The position numbers and the translations under genes are program-made. Positions 1-64,000 of a DNA stretch of 64,000 nucleotides are shown here, piece after piece (within the stretch, counting starts at the first letter, position 1; each line of letters starts with the position of its first letter). Source of the DNA: Calothrix sp. PCC 7103 (GTDB taxonomy: Bacteria > Cyanobacteriota > Cyanobacteriia > Cyanobacteriales > Nostocaceae); contig NZ_KB217478.1 in assembly GCF_000331305.1 (NCBI RefSeq), positions 1,471,679-1,535,678 on the forward strand, in the 5' to 3' direction. The notes under the pieces were generated by a model. That model was not told where the DNA came from and ran no database searches. It saw nothing but the letters and a program-made list of their open reading frames with translations.

Positions 1-78
1 AACGGATGGGTAATTTTAGATAACGAGACTTTGTTTGTATCAAATAAATCATCCGTTACATCCGTTGTATCCGTTGCC
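1..78. repeat. ACGGATGTAACGGAT-type inverted intergenic repeat (left end cut by window)
   Basis: An AACGGATG arm is followed about 40 bases later by ATCCGTTACATCCG and TCCGTTG arms, so the unit can fold into a long hairpin. The same arrangement returns at 31582-31680 and 59487-59580, and a half copy lies at 38064-38091. It is non-coding. Confidence 0.7.
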
Positions 79-99
79 AGCCTACTCCCCAAAATTAAT

Positions 100-170
100 G
101 ACACATACCCGCCCTAGACTATAAGCAAGTGGGCTAACTGTAGCGAAGCCTGCTATAAGCAGACCAATGA
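100..170. repeat. Degenerate copy of the ACCCTA...GAAGCCT intergenic repeat
   Basis: This GCCCTAGACTATAAG... CGAAGCCTGC stretch resembles the better copies at 18693-18746, 26494-26620 and 32546-32610. A separate 20-bp stretch just before it (CTCCCCAAAATTAATGACAC, about 86-105) recurs at about 18519-18538. No coding potential is seen. Confidence 0.35.
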
Positions 171-177
171 GTACGGA

Positions 178-285
178 TGTAATATAAATTACTTTTGTAT
201 GGGAACACTCTCATGGTATTTTTAAAAACATATTGATTATCACTCTCGGTTCGCTTTTTTTAGATAAATATAAACAGGCGCCGCA
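178..285 (+). repeat. Orphan third copy of the TpsA-gene upstream leader
   Basis: This stretch (ACTTTTGTATGGGAACACTC, then CTCATGGTATTTTT, CTCTCGGTTCGC, TAGATAAATATAAACAGGCG) matches the DNA directly upstream of both large haemagglutinin genes (1066-1203 and 7218-7383). No such gene follows here. After the GGCGCC the similarity stops and the end of the DUF operon begins. It probably marks a lost third gene or a duplication/recombination end point. Confidence 0.75.
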
Positions 286-308
286 ACGAAACGTAATGCA
301 TTAAAACT

Positions 309-644
309 TTAACTAAAGATATGGTGGTCAGATAAATTTCCTGCTTCAATAGCAACGTCTGATAATGCTTCTGAGTCCTGACTGATTTTGTCCCAACGGT
401 ATTGCCAGCGTGCCAAGGTTCTTCCTACATCAACTAGCTCTGCTGCTTGTTCTACGTCAACTTCTACTAAAGTCGGCACCGTCCACTCTATAAAGAACAA
501 ACTTTCTCTAATCAACGAAGCTGCTGTATCGAGGTTATTTCCCACTTCTCGCTTGATGGCGCCGAGGTTGTTTGCTATCTTGCTTAAACGAGTAGCAACG
601 TCATCTTGTACAAAAATCTTTTCTTGCTGTATTAAATCTGTCAT
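309..644 (-). CDS. Hypothetical protein (111 aa), second gene of the DUF5674 operon
   Basis: A 111-residue acidic, helix-rich protein with no signal peptide or membrane segment and no domain that I recognise. Its ATG overlaps the stop of the upstream DUF5674 gene by four bases (ATGA), so the two are almost certainly co-translated. The centre (residues about 25-60) has heptad-like hydrophobic spacing compatible with a helical bundle. The pairing of two small overlapping genes resembles toxin-antitoxin or partner-protein architecture, but no motif confirms that. The coding call rests on the operon overlap and the absence of a credible gene on the other strand. Confidence 0.6.
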   Translation of the reverse strand: MTDLIQQEKIFVQDDVATRLSKIANNLGAIKREVGNNLDTAASLIRESLFFIEWTVPTLVEVDVEQAAELVDVGRTLARWQYRWDKISQDSEALSDVAIEAGNLSDHHIFS

Positions 645-967
645 ATTCCACCTAGCAGTTCTATAATAATTTTTGCAACTCTTTCTCTTATGATAGAGTC
701 TGATATTTCCATTGAACGATTTTGAGGAGCGCGAATATTAATCAAGGAGTCGTAAATAATTTCCTGTGTATCAGGCTCAAAACCCGCTCCCCAAATATCT
801 TTTTGCTTACTGCCATCTGCAAGTAATTCCTGCTCACAGTAATAATGCATCTCTCCTCCACCTGCCAATATACGACGCTCGATATCGACTGCTAGCTTGA
901 TAAACATTCCAAATTCCAAGAGCATCTCCTCCATCTCCTCGGTAGTCGCACGCCTGCGTATTATCAA
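641..967 (-). CDS. DUF5674 family protein
   Basis: A 108-aa protein that I recognise as DUF5674-like from its order of motifs: N-terminal MIIRRRAT, LAVDIERRILAGGG, the central acidic D-G-S-x-Q-x-D-x-W-G-A-G and the INIRxxQNRSMEI segment. Family length is about 100-120 residues, so this copy is complete. The molecular function of the family is unknown to me. It is the first gene of a two-gene minus-strand operon with the 111-aa hypothetical (4-base overlap). It is a soluble cytoplasmic protein by composition. No obvious promoter is placed; the DNA upstream is shared with the divergent TpsA gene. Confidence 0.75.
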   Translation of the reverse strand: MIIRRRATTEEMEEMLLEFGMFIKLAVDIERRILAGGGEMHYYCEQELLADGSKQKDIWGAGFEPDTQEIIYDSLINIRAPQNRSMEISDSIIRERVAKIIIELLGGI

Positions 968-1065
968 AACACAGAGGCACTAGATGCTAATGTTTATGAG
1001 TTATTTAACTCACCCGAAATATTTATTAGCATTACTTGACAAAAAAATCACAATTTAGGCACCGG

Positions 1066-1203
1066 AAACATTCTCATGGTATTTTTTAAAACATATTGAT
1101 TACCACTCTCGGTTCGCCTTGTTTGAATAAATATAGACAGGCGCCCGTTAATAAATCAATTGTTCCGAAAGATTGAACTTTTCGACACCAGGAGAGACTC
1201 AAA
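1066..1203 (+). promoter_or_regulatory. Conserved upstream leader of TpsA gene 1
   Basis: The 140 bases before the GTG start are nearly identical to those before the second TpsA gene. They include a GGTTCGCC block, GGCGCC, a TCAATTGTTCCGAAAGATTG block and a purine-rich GGAGAGACTC segment that may act as ribosome-binding site. Conservation between paralogues suggests the promoter and 5' UTR lie here. A TTGACA hexamer at 1038-1043 lies just outside the repeated part. Confidence 0.55.
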
Positions 1204-4200
1204 GTGAAAAATGTTGGTTTGGGCAGTATTGTTTGGCGTTTGAGTACATCTCTTTTACTTGGATGCGTAAGTGCTTTCACTACATCTATCAGTCCAAGTT
1301 TTGCCCAAAGTAACATCGTACCCGACGAAACACTCGGAGCAACAGAGTCTTCGAGAGTTATTTTCAACTTTAACGGCGCCACAAACGATGCAATAATAGG
1401 AGGCGCCGAACGTGGACAGAATTTATTTCACAGTCTCAGAGAGTTTGGCATCAGCGAAAATAGAGGAGCTTATTTTTTGACTCCTAATGCCAATATCCAA
1501 AACATTTTTGCGCGAGTAACAGGAAGTAACCCTTCACAAATTTTTGGAACTCTGGGTGTACGTCAAGCAAATAACTTCACACCTTCAACCGCAAATCTGT
1601 ATTTAGTGAATCCGAATGGGGTTTTGTTCGGACAGAATGCTAGTTTGGATTTAGGAGGCTCTTTTGTTGTAACGACAGCTTCGGGAATTCAGTTTGGCGA
1701 TAGAGGAGTTTACAATGCGAGTGGTGGTCAACCTGCTGATGTTTTAACAATCAACCCTTCGGCTTTTTTGTTCAATCAAATATCTAGAGGTAATATTACC
1801 AATCGTTCTGTTGCACCTGCAGGGCAAAATTTAGTTGGTGAGAATATTACCGGGTTGCGTGTACCCAATGGTAAAAGTTTGTTGTTTTTGGGTGGTGATA
1901 TCAATATAGAAGGTGGTGGACTTAGTAACCCACCTTTTGATGGAAGTGGTGGACTGCGTGCTTATAACGGAAGAATAGAGCTAGGGAGTTTAGCGGCACC
2001 TGGTATTGTAGGATTGAATATAACTGGTGATAGTTTGAGCTTGAACATTCCTGAAGGTGTGGAACGGGGTAATATATCCATCAGCAACGGAGCAGAAATT
2101 AATGTTCGTGGTTCTGGTGGTGGTGATATTGCTTTTACTGCCAAGGATGTGAATGTTAGTGGAACAGGTATAGTCAGAGCAGGTATTGATAATAAATTAG
2201 GTAGTCCCACGAGTAAGTCGGGTGATATACAAATAAACGCGACGGGAACGGTGACTATAACTGATGTAAATTCTCGTGTTAGTAATGTTTTGGATGAGGG
2301 AGCTATTGGTAAAAGCGGTAATGTAAATATTATTACAGGTTCATTGATTGTAAGTAATGATGCAATTTTGAGTACAGATACATTTGGTATAGGAGACGCA
2401 GGGAATATATCTATACTTGCATCTGATAAATTACTTGTTAATAATGGTTTGATTGGCAGTAGCGTTCAATCGGGAGCTATTGGCAACGGTGGTAATATAT
2501 TTATAAAAGTAAATGATGCTGTCTCGTTAATAGACGCTATCGTTGATAGTAATATAGAATCAGGTGCCGTAGGTAATGGTGGTACTATTAATATTGAAGC
2601 TGCTTCTTTATCAATTACTGATGGCACCCAAATACAAACTCTTGTTCGTACAAAAGACGGTGAACAAACTCCAGGGATAAGAAATGGAGGAAATGTTAAT
2701 ATTAATGTTCGTGGCGCCGTTAATATTTCTGGTATTAAAGATGGAATACCTAGCGGTATCCGCAGCACCTTAAATGGAGTAGAGGGAGAAGCAGGTAATA
2801 TTACAATTAATGCTGGTTCTTTAAATTTATCTGATAAAGCTGTAATTAGTTCTGGCACTTTTGGTACAGGGGATGCGGGTAACATTTTTATTCAAGTTAA
2901 TGATTTAGTTGCTCTTGATGATAGCGGCATACTTAGTAATGTGGGAGATGGCGCCGTTGGTAATGGTGGTAATATTAGTATAAAATCTGATTCGCTTTCT
3001 TTATTTAATAGCTCTATAATTTCTGCACAAGTTAATGCTGCAACTACTAATTTTCCTGGTGGTCAAGGTAATGGTGGCAATATTAATATAGATGTTACGG
3101 GAAAAGTTACTTTCGCTGAATCTCAACCAGGCTTTGCTAATGGAATTCTTAATATAGTGGGAGCAGGCGCCGTTGGTAATGGTGGTAATGTTACAATTAA
3201 TGCTGATGTACTCGAAGTAACAGGTGGTTCCCAAATTCAAGGAAGTACCCGTGGAAAAGGGAATTCTGGAGCTATCACTATTAATGCACGCGATACTATT
3301 CGTTTTGATGGTTCTGATGGTGGAGATTTATTTAGTCGCGCTATCAACTCTGTACAACCAGGAGCAGAAGGTAATGCAGGAGGAATTAAGATTATAACAG
3401 GTTCTTTATTTTTGACCAATGGTGCTTTTCTTGGTAGTAGTACTAATGGAGTTGGAAATGCAGGTGATATTAGTATAGATGCCCGCAATATTATTAGCTT
3501 GGATGGGGTTGCAGACATTAATAATAATGTATTAAATACAGGTAGAGGTAAAGCTGGAAATACTTTTATAAAAACAGGTTCATTATTTTTAACGAATGGT
3601 AGCCAAATAAGCGCTGATATTTCAGGTAAAGGAGAAGGTGGAAATATTATCATCAATGCGCGCGATACAGTAAAATTAGATGGAAAAATAGATAGTGCCG
3701 CAAGTGCAATTGGAAATTCATTAATCCCTAATGCTGAAGGAAAAGCTGGGAATATTCAGATAACAACAGGTTCACTTTTAGTAAGTAATGGTGCTAATAT
3801 TGCTACCAGTACTGCTGGAATAGGAGATGCAGGTAATATTACTATTAATGCTCTTGATACAATTACTTTTGAAGGATTTGATAGCAAGCAATTTTTATCA
3901 AGTGAAGCCAGAAGTTCAGTTAGTACTACAGCCACAGGAAATGGTGGAACTATTCGGATTACAGGTAAAGAATTATTTCTTCAAAAAGGTGGTCAAATCA
4001 ATGCTAGTAGCTTCGGTGCTGGTGGCAGTGGTAATATTTTCGTTGATATTAAAAATGCTGTTAATATTGACGGGATTGGCGCTAGAGATGGGACAAGCAG
4101 TGGAATTATAAGCCTGATGTCAGGAACTGCGGGTAAAGGGGGAGATATTCAGATAACAACTGGGAGTCTTTTTGCTACCAATGGTGGTATTTTAGCTAAT

Positions 4201-6168
4201 TTTGGTCAAGGTGAAATTGGTGATATTACTATAAATGCCCGCGATAGTGTTAAATTTGATGGGGTTAAAAATGGATTATTTAGCGGCGCCAGTAGTCAAA
4301 TCTTGCCTGGAAACCAAGGTAGAGGAGGAGATATCAAGATAACGACTGGGTTGTTTACTATTAGCAATGGTGCTGGTATTAGTTCCGGCGCTTCAGGAAT
4401 AGGTGATGGTGGTAATATTTTTATTGATGCCCGTGATGATATTAACTTAATTAATAACGTTCTTATTAACGCCAGCACTTCTGGGCAAGGAAATGGAGGC
4501 AGTATAACTATTAATGCTGGTAAATCCATTGATATGTCAGGTGTATCCGCTAATGAAAACCCTGTTGTTATTAGTGCAGTCTTGCCCAGGAGTTTTGGAA
4601 GGGCTGGTGATTTACGATTAAGTGCTAAAAAATTGTCTTTAAACAATGCTGGTATTGCCAATAGTACATTAGGAACAGGAGATGCGGGTAATATTTTCTT
4701 GCAAGTATCTGAAGATATCTCAATGAATAGTAGTTTAATTGATAGCAGCGTTTTATCTGGGGGTATTGGTAAAGGTGGAAACCTGGATATTGAAACAAAA
4801 AACCTAACCTTAACTAATGGTTCTGGAATTAGCGCTGGGGTATATCGTTCAGAAACAATAGGGAATAATCTTCTTCCAGCAGGTAATGGTAAAGGTGGAA
4901 ATATTCGCATTAATGCATCTGATTCTATAACTATGTCAGGTATTGATGTTACTAGTGCTTCTAGTGGGATAGCAACCTTAACACAAAGAGGTGCATCTGG
5001 TGCTGCTGGAGATATGACTATAACTACTAAAAACTTTCGTGCTACAGATGGAGCAGTTGTTTCGTCTGCGACTTTTAATGAAAGTAAAGGTGGTGAAATT
5101 ACCATCAATGCTAATACATTTGAACTCTTCAGCGGCGCCCAAATACTAGCGAATACTCGCAGTAGTGGAAACGCAGGTAATATTAACCTCAATGTTAAAG
5201 ACCGCATTACTATATCTGGAAGTGACCCAAATTTTAACCAACGATTAGCTTTAGCACAAGAAAATTTAGAAAGGTCTGGTTCAACAAATACGCAATTAAC
5301 TGATGTCATTACAAATGAAGGCGCCAATAGTGGATTATTCGCTAGTACATTACCAGGTTCAACAGGTAATGGCGGCAGCATTATTATTGACCCTCGTGAA
5401 TTTACTATCTCTGACGGTGGACGTATTTCTGTTAATAGCGAAGGTACGGGAACGGCTGGTAATATTTCTGTTACAGGTGGAAATCTCACCCTCGATAAAG
5501 CTGCAATTACTGCCCGTTCTGCCAGTCGTGATGGTGGTAATATCAAATTTACCCTTAGTGATAAGTTTGTATTAAGACGTAGTAGTGAAATTTCTACAAC
5601 TGCGGGAACAGCAGGCGCCGGAGGAAATGGTGGTAATATTGATATTAATGCCAAGTTTGTCGTTGCCATTCCTAAAGAAAATAGTAATATTGATGCCAAT
5701 GCTTTTGAAGGGAATGGTGGCAGAGTACAAATCAATACTCAAGGTATATTTGGAATTGGTTTTAGTCCCCAGGAAACAGAATTGAGCGATATAACCGTTA
5801 GTTCTCAATTTGGTGTTTCTGGTACTGCTGATATTACTTCTCCGAATAATAGCTTTATTCCCAATAATCTAACAGAATTAAATAAAGACACAATCGATAC
5901 GAATGCAATTATTGCTACTAGTTGTATTGCTAGAGATAAAAAAAGTGGTACATTTTACTTTAAAGGTTCTGGTAGTTTGAGTGCGCGTCCGGGTAATGCT
6001 CCACTTAGTACCTATTCAACAGGAACTGTTAGTAATTTACCAGAACAAGAATTATCTACACAACAACGGCGTCCTTGGAAAAAAGGTGACAGCATAGTTG
6101 AGCCTCAAGGAATGTATCAACTACCAAACGGAAAAATTTTTATGGGCAATGAGTGTTCTGAAACCTAA
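1204..6168 (+). CDS. Two-partner secretion exoprotein, filamentous haemagglutinin-like (TpsA), paralogue 1
   Basis: A 1654-aa exported beta-helix protein with a GTG start. Residues 1-35 form a signal peptide ending SFAQ. Residues about 40-190 are the TPS/haemagglutination-activity domain with the hallmark NPNGVLFG (about residue 135) and NPSAFLF motifs. From about 250 to 1530 come dozens of 20-40-residue repeats built on GNGGNI-x-I-x-A-x-SL-x-L-x-NG, typical of a right-handed beta-helix. The C-terminus holds two Cys motifs (ATSCIAR and GNECSE) and QGMYQLPNGKIFMG, common in cyanobacterial members. It should be exported by Sec and threaded across the outer membrane by the TpsB at 12289-14049. 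A paralogue follows at 7384. The likely role is surface adhesion or sheath structure, inferred from family only. Confidence 0.93.
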   Translation: MKNVGLGSIVWRLSTSLLLGCVSAFTTSISPSFAQSNIVPDETLGATESSRVIFNFNGATNDAIIGGAERGQNLFHSLREFGISENRGAYFLTPNANIQNIFARVTGSNPSQIFGTLGVRQANNFTPSTANLYLVNPNGVLFGQNASLDLGGSFVVTTASGIQFGDRGVYNASGGQPADVLTINPSAFLFNQISRGNITNRSVAPAGQNLVGENITGLRVPNGKSLLFLGGDINIEGGGLSNPPFDGSGGLRAYNGRIELGSLAAPGIVGLNITGDSLSLNIPEGVERGNISISNGAEINVRGSGGGDIAFTAKDVNVSGTGIVRAGIDNKLGSPTSKSGDIQINATGTVTITDVNSRVSNVLDEGAIGKSGNVNIITGSLIVSNDAILSTDTFGIGDAGNISILASDKLLVNNGLIGSSVQSGAIGNGGNIFIKVNDAVSLIDAIVDSNIESGAVGNGGTINIEAASLSITDGTQIQTLVRTKDGEQTPGIRNGGNVNINVRGAVNISGIKDGIPSGIRSTLNGVEGEAGNITINAGSLNLSDKAVISSGTFGTGDAGNIFIQVNDLVALDDSGILSNVGDGAVGNGGNISIKSDSLSLFNSSIISAQVNAATTNFPGGQGNGGNINIDVTGKVTFAESQPGFANGILNIVGAGAVGNGGNVTINADVLEVTGGSQIQGSTRGKGNSGAITINARDTIRFDGSDGGDLFSRAINSVQPGAEGNAGGIKIITGSLFLTNGAFLGSSTNGVGNAGDISIDARNIISLDGVADINNNVLNTGRGKAGNTFIKTGSLFLTNGSQISADISGKGEGGNIIINARDTVKLDGKIDSAASAIGNSLIPNAEGKAGNIQITTGSLLVSNGANIATSTAGIGDAGNITINALDTITFEGFDSKQFLSSEARSSVSTTATGNGGTIRITGKELFLQKGGQINASSFGAGGSGNIFVDIKNAVNIDGIGARDGTSSGIISLMSGTAGKGGDIQITTGSLFATNGGILANFGQGEIGDITINARDSVKFDGVKNGLFSGASSQILPGNQGRGGDIKITTGLFTISNGAGISSGASGIGDGGNIFIDARDDINLINNVLINASTSGQGNGGSITINAGKSIDMSGVSANENPVVISAVLPRSFGRAGDLRLSAKKLSLNNAGIANSTLGTGDAGNIFLQVSEDISMNSSLIDSSVLSGGIGKGGNLDIETKNLTLTNGSGISAGVYRSETIGNNLLPAGNGKGGNIRINASDSITMSGIDVTSASSGIATLTQRGASGAAGDMTITTKNFRATDGAVVSSATFNESKGGEITINANTFELFSGAQILANTRSSGNAGNINLNVKDRITISGSDPNFNQRLALAQENLERSGSTNTQLTDVITNEGANSGLFASTLPGSTGNGGSIIIDPREFTISDGGRISVNSEGTGTAGNISVTGGNLTLDKAAITARSASRDGGNIKFTLSDKFVLRRSSEISTTAGTAGAGGNGGNIDINAKFVVAIPKENSNIDANAFEGNGGRVQINTQGIFGIGFSPQETELSDITVSSQFGVSGTADITSPNNSFIPNNLTELNKDTIDTNAIIATSCIARDKKSGTFYFKGSGSLSARPGNAPLSTYSTGTVSNLPEQELSTQQRRPWKKGDSIVEPQGMYQLPNGKIFMGNECSET

Positions 6169-6201
6169 TATCAATTTAATATGAAGCTGCACTATATTTT
6201 T

Positions 6202-6236
6202 TACCACAGAGGCACAGAGACATAGAGACATAGAGA
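6202..6236. repeat. Short tandem heptamer-like repeats (CCACAGAGGCACAGAG type)
   Basis: ACCACAGAGGCACAGAGACATAGAGACATAGAG is a run of near-7-mers of the STRR kind found between genes of heterocystous cyanobacteria. Similar runs occur at 15659-15686, 45957-46021 and 52200-52230. Confidence 0.7.
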
Positions 6237-6256
6237 GTAAGAGGAATGAACCACAA

Positions 6257-6355
6257 ATCATGTCCGGGTACATAACCATAATAAAACCATCGTAGAGACG
6301 CGATTAATCGCGTCTCTACATTGTCGGGAATTATAGGCAAGCAACCGGATATGAT
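6257..6355. mobile_element. 99-bp palindrome-cored MITE-like element, TIR ATCATRTCCGG
   Basis: Left end ATCATGTCCGGGT and right end (reverse complement) ATCATATCCGGTT form imperfect terminal inverted repeats around a perfect 28-bp palindrome at 6292-6319 (half-site GTAGAGACGCGATT). The element abuts the broken 5' end of the Rpn-family gene. No ORF is inside. A one-sided relative with the same right terminus lies at 26916-26975. Confidence 0.65.
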
Positions 6356-7111: not shown

Positions 7112-7217
7112 CATGAGTCATGGGCGCCTGCTCTCAAAGCAAAGCCTAGGTGCCCATACTTTAACATCTTATCAAAAAGGATATATAGATAAACCATAGT
7201 ATCCAAAGGCTGATATT

Positions 7218-27973: not shown

Positions 27974-29095
27974 TTAACAACGTTGATAGCGCATCCCTGG
28001 TAACTGTGCAATTAAACCCATTAACTCAAGTTGTAATAGCGCACTAGAAACTAAACCCGGCGCCATACCTGTTTGTTGAATAATGGCATCAAAAGCAGTA
28101 GAGTCCATCGAAACAGTTTCGATAACCTTTTGAAGTTCAGGTTCTAATTGAGGTAAAGCTGTTTGTACAGGTTTTGCAGGTATGGAATCAAACTGTGGTA
28201 TCGCTCCTAGCATTTTAATTAACTCATCCAGTTCGCTTGGAATTGGTGTGGCGCCTTGTGCAATCAGCTTTAAACAACCTTGAGAATTATAATCATCCAC
28301 TCTACCCGGCAGTGCATACACATCACGTCCAAACTCGTTCGCGTAGTCTGCTGTAATTAAGGCGCCAGATTTAATAGGCGCCTCAAGTACCAAAACCGCG
28401 CGACACAAACCAGCAATAATGCGGTTGCGACGAGGGAAATGTGTGCGGTCGGGTGGAGTTTTGCTATTAAATTCACTGACAACCATTCCTTGCTTTAGTA
28501 TTTGCTGATAAAGTTTTTGATTTTTTGCAGGGTAGACAACATCAACACCTGTACCAAAAACAGCAATAGTGCGTCCGTCTGCTTTCAATGCAGCAACATG
28601 ACTTTCACTGTCAATACCCTCTGCCATTCCCGAAACAACTGTAAATCCATTCTTTGCAAGCGCAGTACTAATTTGCCTAGTCCAACGCACACCATATTCA
28701 CTCGGTTGTCGTGTCCCCACAATTCCAATAAGTCCTTTTTGCCCCAAGTTCTCTTCTAGTTCTACGGTGCCGCAATAATACAAAATAGGTGGAGGACTCG
28801 CAGTTTCCATAAGTAAACGCGGGTACTCATCATCAACAGGTGTCCAGAAATTAGGATTTTCTTTGAGGTGTTTTGCGAGGAACTCTTCTGGATGATTAGT
28901 TTTATTAAAATTAGCTCGCTCTTTGCCGACTTTTTGTATTGTATTGAGACCAAAACCTTCTACGGCGCCTAATTCGCTTGAATTTACGAACCATGCAGCT
29001 TGTAAAGAACCAAAGTGCTGATGCAACCGTTGTAATAATACTGGGCCAACACCTGATATCTGCGACCAAGCTAACCAATACGCGCGTTCTGACAA
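27974..29095 (-). CDS. dprA: DNA-processing protein DprA
   Basis: A 373-aa protein if started at the TTG at 29095 (TTG-TCA-GAA-CGC, reading SERAYWLAWSQISGVGP), which is preceded by GAGGATGG. The longer frame to 29227 runs through repeat-like, non-conserved DNA and is unlikely. Domains: an N-terminal SAM-like helix-hairpin region (residues 1-90), the Rossmann core with GIVGTRQPSEYG, VSGMAEGIDSESH, AVFGTGVDVVYPAKN, SEFNSKTPPDRTHFPRRNRIIAGL and ALPG (about 110-310), and a C-terminal winged-helix-like domain. DprA binds incoming single-stranded DNA and loads RecA during natural transformation. It fits with the pilin-like gene upstream. Confidence 0.9.
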   Translation of the reverse strand: MSERAYWLAWSQISGVGPVLLQRLHQHFGSLQAAWFVNSSELGAVEGFGLNTIQKVGKERANFNKTNHPEEFLAKHLKENPNFWTPVDDEYPRLLMETASPPPILYYCGTVELEENLGQKGLIGIVGTRQPSEYGVRWTRQISTALAKNGFTVVSGMAEGIDSESHVAALKADGRTIAVFGTGVDVVYPAKNQKLYQQILKQGMVVSEFNSKTPPDRTHFPRRNRIIAGLCRAVLVLEAPIKSGALITADYANEFGRDVYALPGRVDDYNSQGCLKLIAQGATPIPSELDELIKMLGAIPQFDSIPAKPVQTALPQLEPELQKVIETVSMDSTAFDAIIQQTGMAPGLVSSALLQLELMGLIAQLPGMRYQRC

Positions 29096-36045: not shown

Positions 36046-37608
36046 ATGGAAACAGTAACTAAAACCGATGTGATAATAGTTGGCGCCGGACCAACGGGTT
36101 TATCTTTAGCTGTACAATTAATACATTACGGCATTGACTTTGTAATCTTTGATAAAAAAGAAAGTGTTACCGAACTTAGTAAAGCTGTGATAGTTCACGC
36201 GCGCACGTTGGAGATTTATGACCAGGTTAATTTAGCGCAAAAAGCCGTCTCTGGTGGTGAGATAGTTCAGAAAGGCGCCTTGATGCACGATGGCAAAATT
36301 AGCGCTCGCCTAGATTTTTCTGACTTTGGTGGGCGCCTTAGTCCGTTTCCCTTTTTCCTCATTTTTGAACAAAGCAAAAATGAGCGTCTTCTTTATGAGC
36401 ATCTTCAGCAAAACGGGAAAGAGGTTCAGTGGCAGACCGAAATGGAAAGTTTAACACAAGATGCGGACGGTGTGAACGTAGTTCTATTAACAGCAAACGG
36501 CAAACAGACAGTTGAAGCTCGATATCTGGTAGGCTGTGACGGCGCCAGTAGTCCAACGCGGCATTTCCTCGGTCTTCCTTTTGAAGGTTCAACACACCCA
36601 CGTTTGTTTTACGTTGCAGATGTGGAGATGGAGTTTCAGGTTGATCAGGCTACATTTTATGGCGCCTTGGGACATGACTCGTTTGCGCTAATGTTCCCCA
36701 TGCAAGGTGAGAAGCACTGGAGACTTGTCGGCAACCTGCCCGAATATAATGACCAAGTTGATCAAGATGTTAGATATGATGAAATCGAAAACAAGGTTAA
36801 ACAATTAGTGCAGCGTCCACTTGATATCACGAACGTGCGCTGGTTTTCGACTTACAAAGTACATACACGTCACGCTGATACATTCTCTGTTGGCAGATGC
36901 TTTCTAGCTGGCGATGCCGCACATATCCATACACCTGCGGGTGGACAGGGAATGAATACGGGCATTCAAGACGCTTATAATTTAGCTTGGAAATTAGCAT
37001 TTGTTTTAAAAAGTTATGCTGGTGTGTCGCTACTCCAAAGTTATAATGAGGAGCGCTTGGCAAACGCTAAACGACTATTGCATACAACCGACCAGTTTTT
37101 TGAAGTTGCAGCAGGCGACCAGTGGTATCTTAGATTTTTCCGCGATAATATTTTGCCCGGTCTTGCCAGTGTTGTCACGAAGTTTGGCGCCGCAAAAGAA
37201 TTTTTATTTCCAATGGTTTCTCAAATTGGAATTAACTATCGTGAGAGTTCTTTAAGTCAACATCATGGCGATAAAGATTTTAAGGTAAAAGCCGGAGATA
37301 GAATGCCGTATTTTTTAGTTGATGGCGCCAGTGTTTACGATAAACTCCACGCTCCCAAATTTCACCTGCTTGTTTTCTCAGACGGGGAACATAATTATCA
37401 AGGTTTAAAGTTGGAACTTGAAAAAGAATACGGGGAATTAATTGACTTTAATGTTATTCCACTTTACCCGCGCGTTGTAGAGATATTCGGTATAAACCGA
37501 CCTTTTCAGGTGCTGCTAAGACCCGACAACTATATTGGATTTATCTCCACGGAAGTATCATTAGATGAGCTTAACGTGTATTTTAATGGGTTTGTTGGGC
37601 GCCTGTAA
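36046..37608 (+). CDS. FAD-dependent aromatic monooxygenase (PHBH-type, group A)
   Basis: A 520-aa flavoprotein. N-terminal FAD-binding GxGxxG in DVIIVGAGPTGLSLAVQL, the DG motif YLVGCDGASSPTR and the GD motif GRCFLAGDAAHIHTPAGGQGMNTGIQDAYNLAWKLA define class A NAD(P)H-dependent hydroxylases. A C-terminal thioredoxin-like domain (about 390-520) occurs in the phenol-hydroxylase/MhpA/PgaE subgroup. It is the last gene of the exporter operon (19 bases after devA, with AGGAGTTCAGG before the ATG). This suggests that an aromatic compound is oxidised and exported, or detoxified. Homology to rifampicin or tetracycline monooxygenases is possible but not specific. Confidence 0.88.
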   Translation: METVTKTDVIIVGAGPTGLSLAVQLIHYGIDFVIFDKKESVTELSKAVIVHARTLEIYDQVNLAQKAVSGGEIVQKGALMHDGKISARLDFSDFGGRLSPFPFFLIFEQSKNERLLYEHLQQNGKEVQWQTEMESLTQDADGVNVVLLTANGKQTVEARYLVGCDGASSPTRHFLGLPFEGSTHPRLFYVADVEMEFQVDQATFYGALGHDSFALMFPMQGEKHWRLVGNLPEYNDQVDQDVRYDEIENKVKQLVQRPLDITNVRWFSTYKVHTRHADTFSVGRCFLAGDAAHIHTPAGGQGMNTGIQDAYNLAWKLAFVLKSYAGVSLLQSYNEERLANAKRLLHTTDQFFEVAAGDQWYLRFFRDNILPGLASVVTKFGAAKEFLFPMVSQIGINYRESSLSQHHGDKDFKVKAGDRMPYFLVDGASVYDKLHAPKFHLLVFSDGEHNYQGLKLELEKEYGELIDFNVIPLYPRVVEIFGINRPFQVLLRPDNYIGFISTEVSLDELNVYFNGFVGRL

Positions 37609-47634: not shown

Positions 47635-50919
<3,285 letters not shown>

Positions 50920-56834: not shown

Positions 56835-56915
56835 TTTGCTTGCTATACACACAATCATTTTAAATGAGCGTGGAAGCAACAAAATCTCTTGCTCAATTTC
56901 AAGGAGGATAAACCA

Positions 56916-57668: not shown

Positions 57669-57908
57669 TAATGTTTTTACTCATCGTGGTCATGTTAAAC
57701 GCTATATTTTAACTCTGGATAAATGCTAGCAAATTACGGTTAAATTCAAGCGAAATGCATTAAAATTTTAATTTTTATCAATAATCACCACATTAGGCAA
57801 AACCTACAATATTACCCTTCAACAATTACGAATTTAATGTCTATTTCCTGCTTCGGAAACAACTGAGCAAAACTGAAAAAAGCAAAAAACATTAATAAGG
57901 AAATCGTT
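57669..57908. other. Intergenic stretch with GGATAAATG...TTACGGTTAAAT motif
   Basis: Nothing coding. GATAAATGCTAGCAAATTACGGTTAAAT (57717-57744) resembles GATAAATGTCAAAAAATCACGGTTAAAT at 59385-59412 and, in its second half, 51075-51090. It is probably a small dispersed repeat. Confidence 0.35.
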
Positions 57909-58436
57909 ATGCCCAGCCAATATACTTTCACAGACTATTCGCCAAAATGGCCCCTAGAGTTCGAGCAAGAAGCCAAACGGCTCAAAACACTTTTTGGTAA
58001 TGAGCTTATTACTGTACACCATATCGGTAGCACATCGGTGCCTCTTTTAGCAGCAAAGCCAATCATTGATTTGCTACCTTTGGTTCGGAACATTAATTAT
58101 ATTGACAACCAGACTCCCATGCTTGAGAAATTAGGCTACAAAGCCTGGGGAGAATACGGACTGGCAGGGCGCCGTTATTTTACCAAGGATTGCGGTGTAT
58201 ATCGGACACATAACATCCATGTTTATCAAGCTGATTCCCCTGATGTTGAGCGTCACTTGGCATTTTGTGCTTATTTGAGAAACCATGAGTCGGTTCGCAC
58301 AGAATACGAGGCCTTGAAGCGAGAAGTTTATGCACGTCATCCAGCAGATATCGCGGCTTACAACGATGGTAAAAACGAGTGGATAAAGCAGATTGAGCCA
58401 GTAGCCGTAGAATGGTATCGGCAACATGGTACTTGA
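57909..58436 (+). CDS. GrpB family protein
   Basis: A 175-aa protein with the GrpB/UPF0157 nucleotidyltransferase-like fold: DYSPKWPLEFEQEAKRLKTLFG, VHHIGSTSVPLLAAKPIIDLLPLV (G-S-T-S with the D-x-L/D metal motif) and NIHVYQADSPDVERHLAFCAYLRNHESVRTEYEALKREVYARHPADIAAYNDGKNEWI. The biochemical role of stand-alone GrpB proteins is not established; members are often found in accessory and antibiotic-related loci. Length normal. Confidence 0.9.
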   Translation: MPSQYTFTDYSPKWPLEFEQEAKRLKTLFGNELITVHHIGSTSVPLLAAKPIIDLLPLVRNINYIDNQTPMLEKLGYKAWGEYGLAGRRYFTKDCGVYRTHNIHVYQADSPDVERHLAFCAYLRNHESVRTEYEALKREVYARHPADIAAYNDGKNEWIKQIEPVAVEWYRQHGT

Positions 58437-58442
58437 TTAGAA

Positions 58443-58552
58443 TTGTTTCAACAGGTTCCCGACATTCGCTTTGCCTGAATTGATGGTGCAACCCAACACT
58501 GACTCAGCCAGACGAAGTTTCTAGGCTGATTATCGAATTCCTGAGCAAGTAA
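58443..58552 (+). pseudogene. Alpha/beta hydrolase tail, decayed copy
   Basis: LFQQVPDIRFA-stop-IDGATQH, then after a frame change TQPDEVSRLIIEFLSK-stop. It corresponds piece by piece to the tail at 53091-53255 (LFKQVPNIRFAWIDGADHTS ... HPDEVSSLILNFLSK) but is in the opposite orientation, with an internal stop and frameshift. The two tails bracket the MFS-GNAT-mph-SDR-grpB block. Confidence 0.6.
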
Positions 58553-58745
58553 TTAAGAATGCTCCTGTCTGTTTCCACATCAATATCCTCGGTCCCTTAC
58601 TTTCCTACCTAGATAAATCCTTTGTTATTTCTAGGCTACAAAATATAGTTGAACGGTAATATTAACCGCACAGAGCGACATTCTAACAAGCGCATTAAAT
58701 GTTTGGTGTCTCGTTTAAAATGTACAACTATTCCTTCGAGTTAAT
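58553..58745. other. Gene-free stretch before the methyltransferase
   Basis: No coding signal, repeat or hairpin of note; it must contain the promoter of the following gene. Confidence 0.4.
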
Positions 58746-59369
58746 ATGAATATTCAAACAGCATACGACAATTGGTCAGCTACATACGATGCTGATGCAA
58801 ACCTAACGCGCGATCTAGATCAAGCAGTCACTAGAGAAACTTTGATGGGTATAAGGTATAAATCACTGATTGAAATTGGCTGTGGCACAGGTAAAAATAC
58901 GTTGATGCTTTCACAAATTGCTGAAAAAGTTTATGCCATCGATTTTTCAGCACAGATGCTCGAAAAGGCTAAAGAGAAAGTTAATTCAGCTAACGTAATA
59001 TTTATGATAGGTAATATTACGGAGAAGTGGACTTGCAGCAATGAGTCTGCTGATTTGGTAACTTGCAATCTAGTTTTAGAACACATAGAAGACTTGTCAT
59101 TTATATTTTCAGAAGCATTTCGTACATTGGTTAAGGGAGGATATTTTTTTATCTCCGAACTCCATCCATTTAGACAATATCAAGGAACGCAAGCTAATTT
59201 TCAACAAGATAAAGAGGTTATTACAATCCCAGCATTTGTGCATAACATATCAGATTTTTTGAATGCAGCAAAAAATCATGGTTTTATACTTGAAAACTTT
59301 GTAGAGTGCTGGCATAAACAAGACCAAAATAAACCACCTAGACTTGCATCCTTTCTGTTTAAAAAATGA
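58746..59369 (+). CDS. Class I SAM-dependent methyltransferase
   Basis: A 207-aa protein: N-terminal AYDNWSATYDADANLTRDLD (typical of Methyltransf_11/25 proteins), motif I LIEIGCGTGKNTLMLSQIAEKVYAIDFSAQMLEKA, DLVTCNLVLEHIEDLSFIFSEAFRTLVKGGYFFISELHP. It is a small-molecule methyltransferase of unknown substrate. The last gene of the accessory run on the plus strand, followed by an inverted repeat that separates it from the convergent ABC gene. Confidence 0.88.
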   Translation: MNIQTAYDNWSATYDADANLTRDLDQAVTRETLMGIRYKSLIEIGCGTGKNTLMLSQIAEKVYAIDFSAQMLEKAKEKVNSANVIFMIGNITEKWTCSNESADLVTCNLVLEHIEDLSFIFSEAFRTLVKGGYFFISELHPFRQYQGTQANFQQDKEVITIPAFVHNISDFLNAAKNHGFILENFVECWHKQDQNKPPRLASFLFKK

Positions 59370-59486
59370 ACATCTTAGCCTCTCGATAAATGTCAAAAAA
59401 TCACGGTTAAATCTATCTTTATGAGTGAAAAATAAGCCATGTGCGGCGCCTGAAATGACCTTAATTTTGGTACGTTAAAAAGATTA

Positions 59487-59580
59487 GCAACGGATGCTGA
59501 ACAGATGTAACGGATGGTTAATTTTGAACGACTAAACTTTGTTTGTAATTAATAAATTATCCGTTACATCCGCTTTATCA
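59487..59580. repeat. ACGGATGTAACGGAT inverted repeat, copy between convergent genes
   Basis: GCAACGGATGCTGAACAGAT ... GTAACGGAT and the inverse ATCCGTTACATCCG arm flank an AT-rich centre. Compare 1-78 and 31582-31680. It may serve as a bidirectional terminator. Confidence 0.75.
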
Positions 59581-59588
59581 GCCACAAC

Positions 59589-60371
59589 TTACCGATAACT
59601 GCTAGCTTGACGAGTAAACATCAAATAGTACTGCCCCTCTAACCTCATTAATTCATCATGAGTTCCCATTTCAATAATTTGACCTTGTTCTAAAACAACT
59701 ATTCGGTCGGCGAGTTTTGCTAAAGCAAGACGATGGCTGACTATTACCGCAATTCTCCCTTTTGCTAAAGTACGGAAAATTTCATAAATTTCATTTTCAG
59801 TTTTTGGGTCTAAGTTAGCTGTTGGTTCGTCGAGTATAAGTAACTCGGTATGAGATAATCGTAGTAAAGCACGAGCAATAGATAAACGTTGCCATTGTCC
59901 CCCTGATAAGTCAACACCACCTTCAAGTTGTTTACCTAAAAGAGTTTCTATACCATTTTCTAATTTATCGATTACCTTGGTCATTCCCGTTTCAGCTATA
60001 GCTTCGGTGATAGCTGCATGATTTTCTATATCTGGAAGATAGCCAAAGCCAATATTTTCTCGAACAGTGGTAGGAAAGCGAGCATAATCTTGCATGACAA
60101 CGGCGATGCGTTTGCGTAGTTCTTCAACGCTAAAGTCTCTTAAATCCTGATTATTCCAAATAATGTTACCTGCGTTGGGGTCGTATAAACGACATAATAA
60201 TTTCGCTAAAGTTGTCTTTCCGGCGCCGTTTTCACCCACCAGCACAATCATTTCGTTTGGTTTAATTGTGAAATTAATGTCGCGCAAAATTTTGCGTTCG
60301 CTATTTGGGTAGTTGAAAGATAGGTTTTGAATTTGAATTCCTTCCGATAAATGATCAACTTGTTCAGCCAA
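59589..60371 (-). CDS. ABC exporter nucleotide-binding domain, membrane domain deleted
   Basis: A 260-aa ATPase half: GIQIQNLSFNYPNSERKILRDINFTI, Walker A VGENGAGKTTLAKLL, Q-loop VVMQDYARFP, signature VDLSGGQWQRLSIARAL, Walker B LLILDEPTANLD and switch H in VIVSHRLAL. This type is normally fused behind a six-helix membrane domain. Here the putative start is a TTG, and the bases immediately upstream belong to the N-terminus of the same exporter in another frame (60353-60505), so about 900 bases of membrane domain are gone. All ATPase motifs are intact, but a free domain is unlikely to work alone. Confidence 0.8.
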   Translation of the reverse strand: MAEQVDHLSEGIQIQNLSFNYPNSERKILRDINFTIKPNEMIVLVGENGAGKTTLAKLLCRLYDPNAGNIIWNNQDLRDFSVEELRKRIAVVMQDYARFPTTVRENIGFGYLPDIENHAAITEAIAETGMTKVIDKLENGIETLLGKQLEGGVDLSGGQWQRLSIARALLRLSHTELLILDEPTANLDPKTENEIYEIFRTLAKGRIAVIVSHRLALAKLADRIVVLEQGQIIEMGTHDELMRLEGQYYLMFTRQASSYR

Positions 60372-60505
60372 ACAACTATACTTGGTATTGCTCCTGCAAA
60401 TAACGTTAAAATTGCTACATAACGTAATTCACGTGGAGCAGCCTGCATCACCATAACCACACTACGGTGAAATGCCTGGAAGGTCGTTGATTGTGTGACT
60501 TTCAT
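60353..60505 (-). pseudogene. N-terminal fragment of the deleted ABC exporter
   Basis: Starting at the ATG at 60505, MKVTQSTTFQAFHRSVVMVM, QAAPRELRYVAILTLFAGAI and PSIVVWLNKLI form the cytoplasmic start and first membrane helix of an ABC exporter. The frame then collides with the ATPase half in a different frame, the two sharing the bases around 60353-60371. An internal deletion is the simplest explanation. Confidence 0.65.
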
Positions 60506-61259
60506 GTTACGTATTTTTCGGTAGAGGATAAAAGCACAAATGCCCCTAATGCTTCTGTGAAGGCACAAAAGCGACATACCCAAACGAGGATAATTATTTG
60601 TTGAAGTAGCCAATTACTCAGATTTCTTTATCTTGGGAATTATTTACCTGCTCTTAAATAAAGGGGAACAATTTTAGCCTCTACAATGTAACATGACATT
60701 TCAATATATTACTTCTAACTTCAGGTGGTAGACTAATGCGTAAGTTTTCTGAGATGATATAAACAATAGAAAGGTAGTCAAATTTTACGAAATTGGCGCG
60801 CGTATTCTGCGGACACATTCTGAAAATGTATGAATATGTGATATTTAATACTTTACTTACTGCAAGTAAGATTTGAGTTATAAAGTAAAGATTAAGACTA
60901 CGTAGGTTGAGTGTAGCGGTAGCGTAACCCAACATATCGGTATTAAGTTGGGAACGCAATTTCACCTTCAAGGACTTTTTGCCCTGTACTTTGAAGGCGC
61001 CCTATCTCTTTCATTATAATTTTTATCCCTTTTTCAAGTGTCTTTTCAAAACGATTTTTCTACGAACGTGTCACGGACTTCATTGCAGGCAGATTTAGTA
61101 GAAATATTTCGGCGCCTTGCTTGTATCTCAAATGACGCAAATTGGTACTACTGGTTAACGTTAACCAGTAGTACTCTAGCATAACAAGAACTTTGCAATA
61201 CGTATTATTACTTAAAAAAAATACTATGAATATAATTTAACTAGTAAAAATACTTATTT
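60506..61259. other. Gene-free region with a 30-bp perfect palindrome
   Basis: AT-rich DNA with three GGCGCC/GCGCGC sites. At 61145-61174 a perfect 30-bp palindrome (half-site GTACTACTGGTTAAC) can form a 15-bp stem without a loop. The minus-strand frame at 60681-60971 has no coding character. Confidence 0.6.
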
Positions 61260-61689
61260 ATGAGCAAAAGTTTGAAACTAGCTGTTTTAAAGGCTTGTAG
61301 TGTATTTACCGTTTTATTAGCTGATAGCGGAGTAAAAACAGCTTCGGCAATATCCTTGCTGGTTATCTACGCAATATCAACCCAGATTTTTTGACAGAGT
61401 TTGGATAATCTGTTTATCCAGCACAAGAAGACCCAATATTAAAATCTCAAAACCTGCCTGAAGGTTATTTAACAACACTACCAGGAACGTGCGGTAAGTT
61501 ATTTTATAACGTTGCAAATACAGACCCCAAAGTTTTAGAAATTGATGAAGCTACCAAACAAACATTTACAACAGGTGAGGGAGGTAGTTTATAGGATATG
61601 CTGATAAAAATGACTGGAGTCCACTTTTTGCAAGTGAAAATCCAGGTGAAGTAATTAGCGTACTAATACGGACTCTTAGCGTTAGATAA
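61260..61689 (+). pseudogene. Predicted secreted-protein gene, frameshifted
   Basis: MSKSLKLAVLKACSVFTVLL followed by ADSGVKTASAIS is a signal-peptide-like start. The reading then changes frame to LAGYLRNINPDFLTEFG, a stop, SVYPAQEDPILKSQNLPEGY and LTTLPGTCGKLFYNVANTDP continuing to TFTTGEGGSL, and in a further frame GYADKNDWSPLFASENPGEV. At least two frameshifts and a stop are needed to join these parts. No family is recognised. Confidence 0.5.
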
Positions 61690-61792
61690 AACACTTTTTA
61701 TTAATGCAAATGGCGCCATATATGGGAACATACTTTTTTTTACAGTGGTGGTTGTTCACAGTTTGTTTGCGTTTTGACTAAATGTACGCCAT

Positions 61793-61820
61793 GTAGAGAC
61801 CGACTATATTCGCTCTCTAC
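61793..61820. repeat. Degenerate copy of the 28-bp palindrome
   Basis: GTAGAGAC ... CTCTCTAC ends are kept, but the centre (CGACTATATTCG) no longer pairs fully. Weak flanking similarity only. It lies about 130 bases upstream of the TPR gene. Confidence 0.5.
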
Positions 61821-61924
61821 ATTATGTGCGAACCCATAGTGGCGCCTGCCAAATCGAATAAAATAGAGTATTATCGTATACCAATAACCTTTAGCGCTCA
61901 AATTTTATAGTACCTTTGCATTGT

Positions 61925-62659
61925 ATGAATAATTATTACTTTAGAATATTTTCCATAGCTTCAATTATCACAATACTTATATTGTTAACTAGCAAAACAT
62001 TACTGAGCAGTAGTAATAAAGCTAATGAAAACCAATCTAATTCAACCGAAACAATAAAAACAGAAAAGCCGCAACAATCACAAATAGAGTTATCTCAACA
62101 AAAACAGTGGCGTCAACAATTATCTGTATTACAGCAAAATTTCAAAAAATACCAGCAAGATGGTAATATTACTCAAGAAATATCAACATTAAGTCAAATA
62201 GGTGTTATTCATAACGAGCTAAATGAATATTCACAAGCATTGGAATATTTACGATTAGCCCAAACAAAGCTCAACGCATCTAATTTGGCGCCAAGGGAAA
62301 AATCTTTTATAGAATCCGAACTACTTGTTAGTTTAGGAACTATTTATGCTGACCAAGGGAATTATCCTCAAGTTTTAGAAATTACAAGAAAAATATCTCA
62401 ATCTAGCTCTTTAACTATAGGTGATTTAGGAAACAATGCAAAACCGACACCAGACAAAAAGCAACCACCAGAAGTAGACATAAGAAAAGATGCTTATACA
62501 CTTTATAGCATCGCAACCACACAACAAAAACGCGGTAAAGTTCGTGAAGCATTACGCACTGCTGAAGAAGTATTAAAAATGCTCAGAACAGTAAATGAGA
62601 AAAACGGCGAACAAGAAGTTACTAATTTTATTAATACTCTGCGTCAGCAATTACAGTAA
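61925..62659 (+). CDS. Tetratricopeptide-repeat protein with N-terminal membrane anchor
   Basis: 244 aa from the ATG at 61925; an upstream TTG in frame is less likely. Residues about 5-25 (FRIFSIASIITILILLTSKTLL) form a signal anchor. A polar N/Q/S/E linker follows, then TPR-like helices: QEISTLSQIGVIHNELNEYSQALEYLRLAQTKL, ESELLVSLGTIYADQGNYPQVLEITRKI and AYTLYSIATTQQKRGKVREALRTAEEVLKML. It probably acts as a periplasmic or membrane-bound protein-interaction scaffold. Function unknown. Confidence 0.8.
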   Translation: MNNYYFRIFSIASIITILILLTSKTLLSSSNKANENQSNSTETIKTEKPQQSQIELSQQKQWRQQLSVLQQNFKKYQQDGNITQEISTLSQIGVIHNELNEYSQALEYLRLAQTKLNASNLAPREKSFIESELLVSLGTIYADQGNYPQVLEITRKISQSSSLTIGDLGNNAKPTPDKKQPPEVDIRKDAYTLYSIATTQQKRGKVREALRTAEEVLKMLRTVNEKNGEQEVTNFINTLRQQLQ

Positions 62660-62686
62660 CTCTATTCTCAAAATATAAATAAAAAA

Positions 62687-62722
62687 GATAGAAGTTGAAA
62701 TTTACATCACTCAACTTCTATC
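62687..62722 (-). terminator. Terminator between convergent genes, strongest on the minus strand
   Basis: A perfect 12-bp stem GATAGAAGTTGA/TCAACTTCTATC with a 12-base loop. On the minus strand it is followed by TTTTTTATTTATATTTT, a good U-tract for the 62794-63015 gene. On the plus strand CAAACCTTTT follows, weaker, for the TPR gene. Confidence 0.75.
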
Positions 62723-62793
62723 AAACCTTTTACGTGCAATATACAAATATAGCTTTCAAGCATTTAACTATCTAGCTAAAAGGATTTTGCACC

Positions 62794-63015
62794 TTAACCG
62801 TTCAACATGACATCAGGGCATCGTTTACGACAAACTTTTTTACCATTAATAATTTCACAGGTTAAAACAGGGTATCCACCTCCGTTACACTGTGCAATTA
62901 ACTGTTGAGGTTTTAAGTTTGATGAGGTTTGGGCTACAACTGGAATTACATTTAGTAATAGAGCAGTTGCAGTTGAACCTAACGCAGCAAAACTAAAAAT
63001 TGTTGACTTTTTCAT
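62794..63015 (-). CDS. Small secreted cysteine-containing protein (73 aa)
   Basis: From the ATG at 63015: MKKSTIFSFAALGSTATALLLNVIPVVAQ is a clear signal peptide ending V-A-Q. The mature peptide of about 45 residues has four cysteines (QCNGGGYPVLTCEIINGKKVCRKRCPD), suggesting two disulfides. A longer frame to 63081 is rejected because the signal peptide should be N-terminal. No family is recognised. A strong terminator follows. Confidence 0.7.
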   Translation of the reverse strand: MKKSTIFSFAALGSTATALLLNVIPVVAQTSSNLKPQQLIAQCNGGGYPVLTCEIINGKKVCRKRCPDVMLNG

Positions 63016-63355
63016 GGTCAATCTCACAAACATTGTATGTTGAATAGATTTGTAAGTTGTTATCCTTACCCATCTAAGCATTTACATGTTTGGCTCTTCA
63101 GGTTTATGCAATAATGTAGTACTTACGCTAACTATATTTATAGCGTGTGTTGAAAGCAGATATTGACATTGTGATGTCCCAAAAAGGCGCCAATGTTAGA
63201 AAAGCAGGTATCGATGGATATTCTAACATTAGAATTCAACTTTCAAATTTTTGTTTTGATTAGGTTATCTCAGGAGATATAACAGAACACCATTTAATAG
63301 GAAAAGGCAAGGATGCCCGCTTTACAAGAGTTGAGATTAAGAGATTATAAGGGTT
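63016..63355. other. Intergenic region, small inverted repeat only
   Basis: Holds AATGTTAG ... CTAACATT arms (about 63191-63230) around a GGCGCC-adjacent stretch, and GGCAAGGATGCCCGC (63308-63322), an arm of the hairpin family at 47447-47522. No gene. Confidence 0.4.
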
Positions 63356-63970
63356 TTAATAGCTTTTGAATAATGCATAAATGTAGGCTATGGCTTCTGG
63401 AATTACTGTGCGTATTCCTTCGCTGGAACTCCACCACCTTTTTGCGTCGTAACTGCGGGTTTCTGCGGCAATTACACCTATTTTTGTGTTAGGTAATACT
63501 TTTTTATATAGCATCCAGCTACGTCGCGCGTGTACGTCATCGCTGAATAGGTTCATTGATTCAAGTTTAATTGGAGATGTTGCTAGTTTTTCTTTTAATG
63601 CAATAACTGAAGCATAAGTTCTATCTTTTCTTACGTCTGGTGTTGGTATTGGTATTATTTTATCATCGTCGGCGCCCATTGCTTTTAGTGTGGCTGCGGC
63701 AAGGTTTGCAAAGTCTTTATATTCAGATAGATAATATCCGCGTTGTAGGGGAATGCCTGTAGTTATTATATGAGTATATGAACCCATTTCAAATTCATTT
63801 AATGCTTGTTTTAGTGCTTCGTCAGCAAGCCATCCTTCGACTACTAGTATATCGGCTTTGATGGGAGAGGTAACGGCAAGAAATGGTTGAACTTGAGTGA
63901 TTATAATTGTGATTAAAGCAAGAATCAGCGTACTCGCTATTATCCAGCCTTGCAGTGTTAGAGTCAACAT
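63356..63970 (-). CDS. YdcF/ElyC family protein (DUF218)
   Basis: A 204-aa protein with one N-terminal transmembrane helix (about 8-27, GWIIASTLILALITIIITQV), then the DUF218 domain: ADILVVEGWLADEALKQALNEFEMGSYTHIITTG (the V-V-x-G-W/G start), DRTYASVIALKEKL and MNLFSDDVHARRSWMLYKKVLP. Members act in envelope carbon or exopolysaccharide metabolism, with vancomycin-sensitivity (SanA) and ElyC examples. This copy resembles the cyanobacterial group with VVEGWL. It seems complete, ending LFKSY. Confidence 0.85.
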   Translation of the reverse strand: MLTLTLQGWIIASTLILALITIIITQVQPFLAVTSPIKADILVVEGWLADEALKQALNEFEMGSYTHIITTGIPLQRGYYLSEYKDFANLAAATLKAMGADDDKIIPIPTPDVRKDRTYASVIALKEKLATSPIKLESMNLFSDDVHARRSWMLYKKVLPNTKIGVIAAETRSYDAKRWWSSSEGIRTVIPEAIAYIYALFKSY

Positions 63971-64000
63971 TTCTTGCCGTCTTATTAGTTTAATATCAAA

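Follow-up and report, generated by a model that had tools for sequence, protein, structure and literature searches.

GGCGCC as an alternate highly iterated palindrome across a Calothrix/Dulcicalothrix genus that carries a putative orphan GRCGYC-type methyltransferase

To our knowledge, the purpose of HIP1 (GCGATCGC), the highly iterated palindrome (HIP) of cyanobacterial genomes, has long been an open question. In the excerpts available of Elhai (2015, PMC4390886), on which all our statements about that study are based, HIP1 is described for most cyanobacteria as dispersed, occurring about once per kb and tied to conserved methyltransferases, and the term alternate HIP is used for a grossly over-represented palindrome reaching about 500-2500 copies per Mb. 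One such palindrome is GGCGCC of Calothrix sp. PCC 7103, which, words inside HIP1 set apart, exceeded every other 6-mer among 97 genomes in over-representation by a wide margin; for the same genome, HIP1 was given as 14 per Mb, CAGGCGCC as 159 per Mb and GATC as 16% of expectation, and two GrCGyC methyltransferases and a damaged CGATCG methyltransferase were reported (PMC4390886). The material for GGCGCC consisted of this one genome and 19 kb of strain D253. Alternate HIPs were called sporadic and not found in clades, as an observation of the author and not as a definition, and their supposed sporadic nature was used to argue for selection of HIP1 itself (PMC4390886). Here, we analyzed GGCGCC in a 64,000-nt stretch of PCC 7103 (the window), in its whole genome (G000, 11,584,393 bases) and in related genomes. 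The strain-level finding was already known (PMC4390886); as far as our literature search shows, which covered open-licence papers only and found no clade-level account of an alternate HIP, the additions are the persistence of the motif at clade level, a genus-wide orphan methyltransferase locus and the spectrum of site losses and gains.

A first-pass annotation of the window, made from its sequence, had put GGCGCC at about 110 copies against some four expected by chance, and the count bears this out, with 113 sites versus 3.4 expected from a zero-order model at 38.8% GC, dispersed at 2-10 per 4 kb. The same annotation had called HIP1 absent, which holds for the window (0 copies of GCGATCGC) but not for the genome, where 163 copies are present (reversed control, 58), clustered among the matches listed. 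Genome-wide, GGCGCC occurs 17,704 times. The reversed pattern CCGCGG, with 8 copies, is a poor control because it is itself depleted, a C5 methyltransferase gene adjoining an Eco29kI-type endonuclease gene in G000. In 604 kb of G000 (a count that excludes the 20-kb stretch G000:C7:100001-120000, L178, which reads N), 958 GGCGCC copies were observed versus 44 expected at order 2, an observed-to-expected ratio (O/E) of about 21.6 that makes it the top palindrome, with CGCGCG second (202 vs 82 expected). GGCGCC accordingly lies far from its order-2 Markov expectation, and GCGATCGC stays infrequent across the rest of the genome (163 copies in 11.58 Mb), the two points on which the annotation had let its claim turn. 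A maximum-order Markov null (58 expected in the window, O/E 1.9) was dropped as unfair for GGCGCC, because most GGCGC and GCGCC words sit inside it. Our values for G000 match those given in the available part of PMC4390886: HIP1 at 163/11.58 = 14 per Mb, CAGGCGCC at 155 per Mb in the 604-kb sample and GATC at an O/E of 0.19. The sites also keep apart at short range, gaps below 50 bp numbering 74 versus 158 expected, about half, a value as low as that of only 1 of 226 control words; such repulsion is missing for HIP1 in 20 pieces from HIP1 genomes (12 vs 10 gaps below 50 bp).

The distribution of the motif was followed in a family sample of 217 genomes, seven of which belong to the Calothrix/Dulcicalothrix genus: G000, Dulcicalothrix desertica PCC 7102 (G060), HK-06 (G061), NIES-4105 (G062), the metagenome-assembled genome C42_A2020_038 (G063), FI2-JRJ7 (G064) and Calothrix PCC 7716 (G065). 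All seven carry 7,475-20,380 copies, at densities, resting mostly on rounded genome sizes, of 1.15-1.71 per kb (1150-1711 per Mb), and GGCGCC is the top palindrome in the sample of each; HIP1 occurs in 31-163 copies vs 37-75 for the reversed controls. No comparable GGCGCC density was found in any of the 210 other family genomes, none of which exceeds about 0.11 per kb, the highest count being 1,053 in the 9.5 Mb of G084 (control, 1,270), and HIP1 is present there in at least 535 copies per genome, G182 excepted. The swap of the iterated palindrome that the first-pass annotation had proposed for the lineage is therefore seen throughout the genus and nowhere else in the family sample. Two features of an alternate HIP in the excerpts of PMC4390886, over-representation and depressed HIP1, are found in all seven genomes; alternate HIPs were described there as sporadic, whereas GGCGCC is common to a whole genus, and so the argument that they do not form clades fails for this motif. 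GATC, which HIP1 contains along with CGATCG and GGCGCC does not, has an O/E of 0.09-0.31 in the seven genus samples vs 0.81 in the 20 pieces of HIP1 genomes. In each genus sample, CGCGCG comes next after GGCGCC among the over-represented palindromes (O/E 2-6). The exception G182 (genus g46; 3.2 Mb, 88% complete) has 30 copies of HIP1, 15 of GGCGCC and a DmtC-like gene.

GGCGCC at or above the density of the genus was also met in a 386-genome sample of the phylum, for example in G241 (12,912 in 6.1 Mb), G263 (14,895 in 7.0 Mb) and G291 (9,489 in 3.8 Mb), with controls of 9,210, 9,970 and 2,450, respectively. Most phylum genomes combining dense GGCGCC with high controls are taken to be GC-rich genomes. 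G224, from another family of the order, has 2,493 copies versus a control of 38 in 6.2 Mb, and G224 and G291, both from other families of the order, may be independent GGCGCC enrichments.

G000 holds 15 stretches matching PF00145, among them L017, a C5 methyltransferase gene outside the window (Table 1). The L017 class is present in all seven genomes of the genus, with identities of 82-99% to the G000 copy; G061 has its syntenic copy divided between two contig ends, plus another one (83%) elsewhere. The upstream gene, RuBisCO-like by our own reading, is syntenic in all seven genomes and the downstream gene in six. The seven genus rows, G061 being represented by its second copy, group as one clade with support 100/99 in a 43-row tree. 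Diverged paralogues (about 59-61%) exist in G000, G062, G064 and G065, and partial ones in G061 and G065. Most of the non-genus homologues found are 53-72% identical to L017, one partial match being at 31%. The closest described systems are of the BsaHI/HgiDI/HindVP type (GRCGYC), which share the C5 methyltransferase family and the recognition region with L017, a region that is well conserved; the characterized M.BsaHI methylates the central (inner) C of GRCGYC, according to the accessible part of its description (PMC2413257, 2008). In many relatives the methyltransferase goes with RE_HindVP, whereas in the genus it stands without it. RE_HindVP lies directly upstream in all ten scanned non-genus homologues (of 19 non-genus among 26 loci), two of these genes being partial, at 133 and 305 aa; by tblastn, no endonuclease was found at 3 of 14 non-genus homologue loci (L085, L086, L090). 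RE_HindVP (PF09519) was found in none of the seven genus genomes and is over the cut-off in 42 of the 210 others. Judged by this gene content, L017 is an orphan methyltransferase and not part of a GRCGYC restriction-modification system of the BsaHI/HindVP type. Because of its RE_HindVP-linked homologues and conserved recognition region, it probably recognizes GRCGYC rather than GGCGCC alone, and L017 and L018 are candidates for the two GrCGyC methyltransferases mentioned in the excerpts of PMC4390886. The search for an orphan enzyme suggested by the first-pass annotation has thus yielded one, with a probable specificity broader than the palindrome itself.

Outside the genus, a homologue of L017 at E <= 1e-40 was found in 56 of the 210 genomes, 39 of them with a RE_HindVP match (fragments of either gene counted) and 17 without; four further genomes have RE_HindVP matches and lack the methyltransferase. 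The median GGCGCC density in the 39 genomes with both genes is 0.7 per Mb, versus 1545 per Mb in the genus. Four of the 17 orphan-bearing genomes, in which the gene is fragmentary or broken (G019, G097, G105, G124), are left aside in the comparison of full-length orphans below. The four genomes of genus g26 (G076-G079) all carry an orphan GRCGYC-type methyltransferase without RE_HindVP and have HIP1 intact; with 144-277 copies, their GGCGCC content per Mb is the highest among the 13 full-length orphan-bearing relatives. This is perhaps an early or alternative state.

The counterpart to this presence is an absence. A conserved C5 methyltransferase class (L100), found in all seven chosen HIP1 genomes, has matches at E <= 1e-90 in 202 of the 210 non-genus genomes vs none of the seven genus genomes; from this distribution we infer that it is DmtC, the CGATCG C5 methyltransferase. 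The different companion methyltransferase that the first-pass annotation had considered thereby takes the form of a GRCGYC-family enzyme, its specificity inferred, in genomes that lack the C5 methyltransferase of their HIP1 relatives. G079, which has no DmtC-like match at this threshold, nevertheless has 6,883 HIP1 copies. Other companions were considered and rejected. The L022 type, presumably DmtD, occurs in all seven genus genomes but also in six of the seven chosen HIP1 genomes and is not specific. L014 adjoins a TdeIII-type endonuclease gene (RE_TdeIII, PF09520); L013 is a 76% paralogue of L014 whose neighbor has no Pfam match; and the L015 type was present in five of the seven genus genomes among the fetched loci.

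The fate of individual sites was followed in G000:C7:7.9-8.3 Mb, aligned to the syntenic DNA of G060, G064, G065 and G062, because the window itself aligns only in patches; the turnover rates thus come from one region. In a first four-way set, GGCGCC stands at 182 positions in any genome and at 108 in all four, a conservation that places it 4th among 923 hexamers (32% for the remaining all-GC hexamers). Three-to-one losses number 46 in this set, and in 33 of these a lone C>T or G>A substitution hit the inner CpG; one-to-three gains number 13, several of them resembling parallel losses. In a larger set, polarized by identical other genomes and with expectations from trinucleotide rates, 72 single-step losses were counted vs 140 expected, and multi-base changes added 13 losses and 3 gains; a looser count over positions with at least four genomes gave 65 losses and 18 gains that concern a single genome. 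Losses are uneven by genome (G000 27, G064 18, G065 9, G060 6, G062 5). Among 830 hexamers, the bias towards loss is strongest for GGCGCC, and the bias towards gain is strongest for its decay product, GGCACC/GGTGCC (4 losses, 56 gains). By total single-step loss relative to expectation, GGCGCC is only 217th lowest of 1,754 words; the constraint becomes visible once inner transitions are set apart. Inner-CpG transitions make up 52 of the 72 single-step losses vs 43 of 99 in matched HGCGCD words, an enrichment of 3.4-fold relative to other changes (Fisher p = 0.0002), and the other changes, which include one (GGCGCC) and six (HGCGCD) inner transversions, amount to 20/841 for GGCGCC vs 56/724 for HGCGCD (p = 8e-7). 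The spectrum fits a constrained site with 5-methylcytosine (m5C) at the inner C, without being proof of it.

We put at about 60% the probability that GGCGCC, as an alternate HIP linked with an orphan GRCGYC-type methyltransferase, was fixed in the genus ancestor after the loss of HIP1 and DmtC. The switch coincides with the orphan enzyme, the absence of the DmtC-like gene and the genus-wide depletion of GATC. On this account, restriction pressure on GATC together with the loss of the CGATCG methyltransferase would have emptied the HIP1 niche, a scenario found in the excerpts of PMC4390886 that we apply here to the genus as a whole; the GRCGYC methyltransferase would have supplied a new class of methylated sites, modified at the inner C as in the characterized homologue. 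The outer bases would now be held by constraint, be it selection or biased repair, and the inner CpG would decay by C>T, the change to be expected of m5C. Several observations weigh against this account. The genus is one evolutionary event, so that the association of gene and motif within the family has n = 1. The 13 non-genus genomes with a full-length orphan lack a comparable enrichment, with a GGCGCC median of 12.8 per Mb (range 0.3-42.6), and therefore the orphan enzyme alone is not sufficient for the enrichment. Likewise, eight non-genus genomes without a DmtC-like match at E <= 1e-90 keep at least 2,878 HIP1 copies each, and therefore DmtC absence by itself is not enough to remove HIP1. 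The remaining GRCGYC words are depleted (GACGTC 2 observed vs 36 expected, GACGCC 11 vs 40), and methylation alone therefore cannot explain the GGCGCC enrichment. The inner C>T rate per site is equal in GGCGCC (52/841) and other GCGC words (43/724), which weakens any claim of m5C deamination in absolute terms and leaves the signature a relative one. Finally, in the larger turnover set only 4 gains (1.4 expected) stand against the 72 losses.

Two explanations of how the sites came to be, and are kept, have to be weighed next to each other. The sites may be selected for a putative function, for example as signals in recombination, repair or DNA identity, the palindrome being arbitrary as long as it is methylated, a view we consider possible but less likely than not. 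The genus-wide persistence of GGCGCC and its occurrence in intergenic DNA as well as in every codon phase favor it, as do the high rank of its conservation and the about three-fold rarity of changes other than inner transitions relative to matched GCGC words, both of which may include protein constraint; it has to accommodate a net loss that is heavy in G000 and G064 and slight in G060 and G065. Alternatively, GGCGCC may have risen without selection, as a by-product of mismatch repair directed by G-meC at GRCGYC-methylated sites. This model is published and, in the excerpts of PMC4390886, was the only mechanism of spread found in our search; the depletion of the GACGCC/GGCGTC intermediates and two GGCGTC -> GGCGCC changes in the four-way alignment, none of which remains under stricter criteria, agree with it, and the shortage of short gaps fits a density-dependent process. 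We consider it, too, less likely than not. Losses far above gains do not speak for a ratchet that is still creating sites, all four gains are GGCACC -> GGCGCC (0.2 expected), some of which may be parallel losses, the repulsion extends over less than 100 bp, far below the roughly 1000 nt of the model, and the model relies on a postulated nicking enzyme.

Simpler origins of the excess are contradicted by the counts themselves. A compositional or codon artefact, through Gly-Ala codon preference or GC islands, could draw on the commonest phase being GGC GCC, Gly-Ala (434 of 788 coding sites). With crude open reading frame calling, however, the other two phases are well filled (159 and 195), and the motif is common in coding and noncoding DNA alike, as the first-pass annotation had held (1.68 vs 1.26 per kb), which excludes a codon artefact; an O/E of about 21 at order 2 in an AT-rich genome, with none of the 210 relatives comparably dense, makes this origin very improbable. 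Restriction avoidance of other palindromes could make GGCGCC look high by contrast, many of them (TTCGAA, GTGCAC, GTCGAC, CCGCGG) being near zero, but GGCGCC lies about 21 times above its own expectation, beyond merely undepleted, and we give this idea next to no credence.

The coordinates of the features are collected in Table 1. In the G000 sample, which here includes the one 20-kb N stretch (L178), TTCGAA, GTGCAC, GTCGAC, CGTACG, CCGCGG and CCCGGG are all at 0, TGCGCA is at 1 vs about 126, and GGNCC and GGCC are depleted, the near-absent palindromes suggesting numerous restriction systems, now or in the past. The C5 methyltransferase gene L023 is followed by an Eco29kI-type endonuclease gene (PF09517), which would account for CCGCGG being so rare (8 in 11.58 Mb). 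The C5 methyltransferase gene L016 is broken by one in-frame stop and has longer open relatives in G060, G061 and G062. G000 also contains HIP1-rich patches with few or no GGCGCC. In 2-kb bins drawn from regions partly picked for HIP1 clusters, the mean GGCGCC number is 0.83 with at least two HIP1 (12 bins), 1.19 with one (26) and 3.03 with none (350; p = 2e-5 for none vs at least two). These patches are probably DNA imported from HIP1 cyanobacteria, which suggests that the motif type could flag foreign or transferred DNA.

Table 1. Positions of GGCGCC features in the window (first five rows) and of loci elsewhere in G000 (C7 and C12)
Feature	Location	Strand	Remark
Dispersed GGCGCC palindromes	1..64000	.	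n = 113; GCGATCGC 0; by count
First GGCGCC site	277..282	.	
Closest GGCGCC pair	28361..28382	.	sites at 28361 and 28377
Dense GGCGCC run	36082..37603	.	sites at 36082, 36274, 36332, 36541, 36661, 37186, 37324, 37598
Last GGCGCC site	63671..63676	.	
L017, GRCGYC-type C5 methyltransferase (probable specificity)	G000:C7:8004469-8005404		outside the window
L014, C5 methyltransferase	G000:C7:3460727-3461806		
L013	G000:C7:7282329		
L016, C5 methyltransferase	G000:C7:7848143-7849318		
L023, C5 methyltransferase	G000:C12:1215005-1216153		
HIP1-rich patch (L168/L169)	G000:C7:652-662 kb		
HIP1-rich patch (L170)	G000:C7:2103-2109 kb		
HIP1-rich patch (L174)	G000:C7:2865-2875 kb		

It is possible, and we advance it with reserve, that this genus has replaced one genome-wide system of methylated palindromes by another and kept it through speciation, selection holding the outer bases while the methylated inner C decays by C>T faster than new sites arise, so that the replacement itself is now slowly eroding. 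If true, the function of HIPs would be tied to methylated, spaced palindromes and not to the GCGATCGC sequence. A genus with a fixed alternate HIP removes, for GGCGCC, the argument from sporadic occurrence that the excerpts of PMC4390886 give for selection of HIP1. The genus also offers a comparative system, with close species, syntenic sites whose gain or loss can be scored and one conserved orphan methyltransferase, completed by HIP1-bearing relatives in which a homologous methyltransferase is accompanied by its endonuclease or stands alone.

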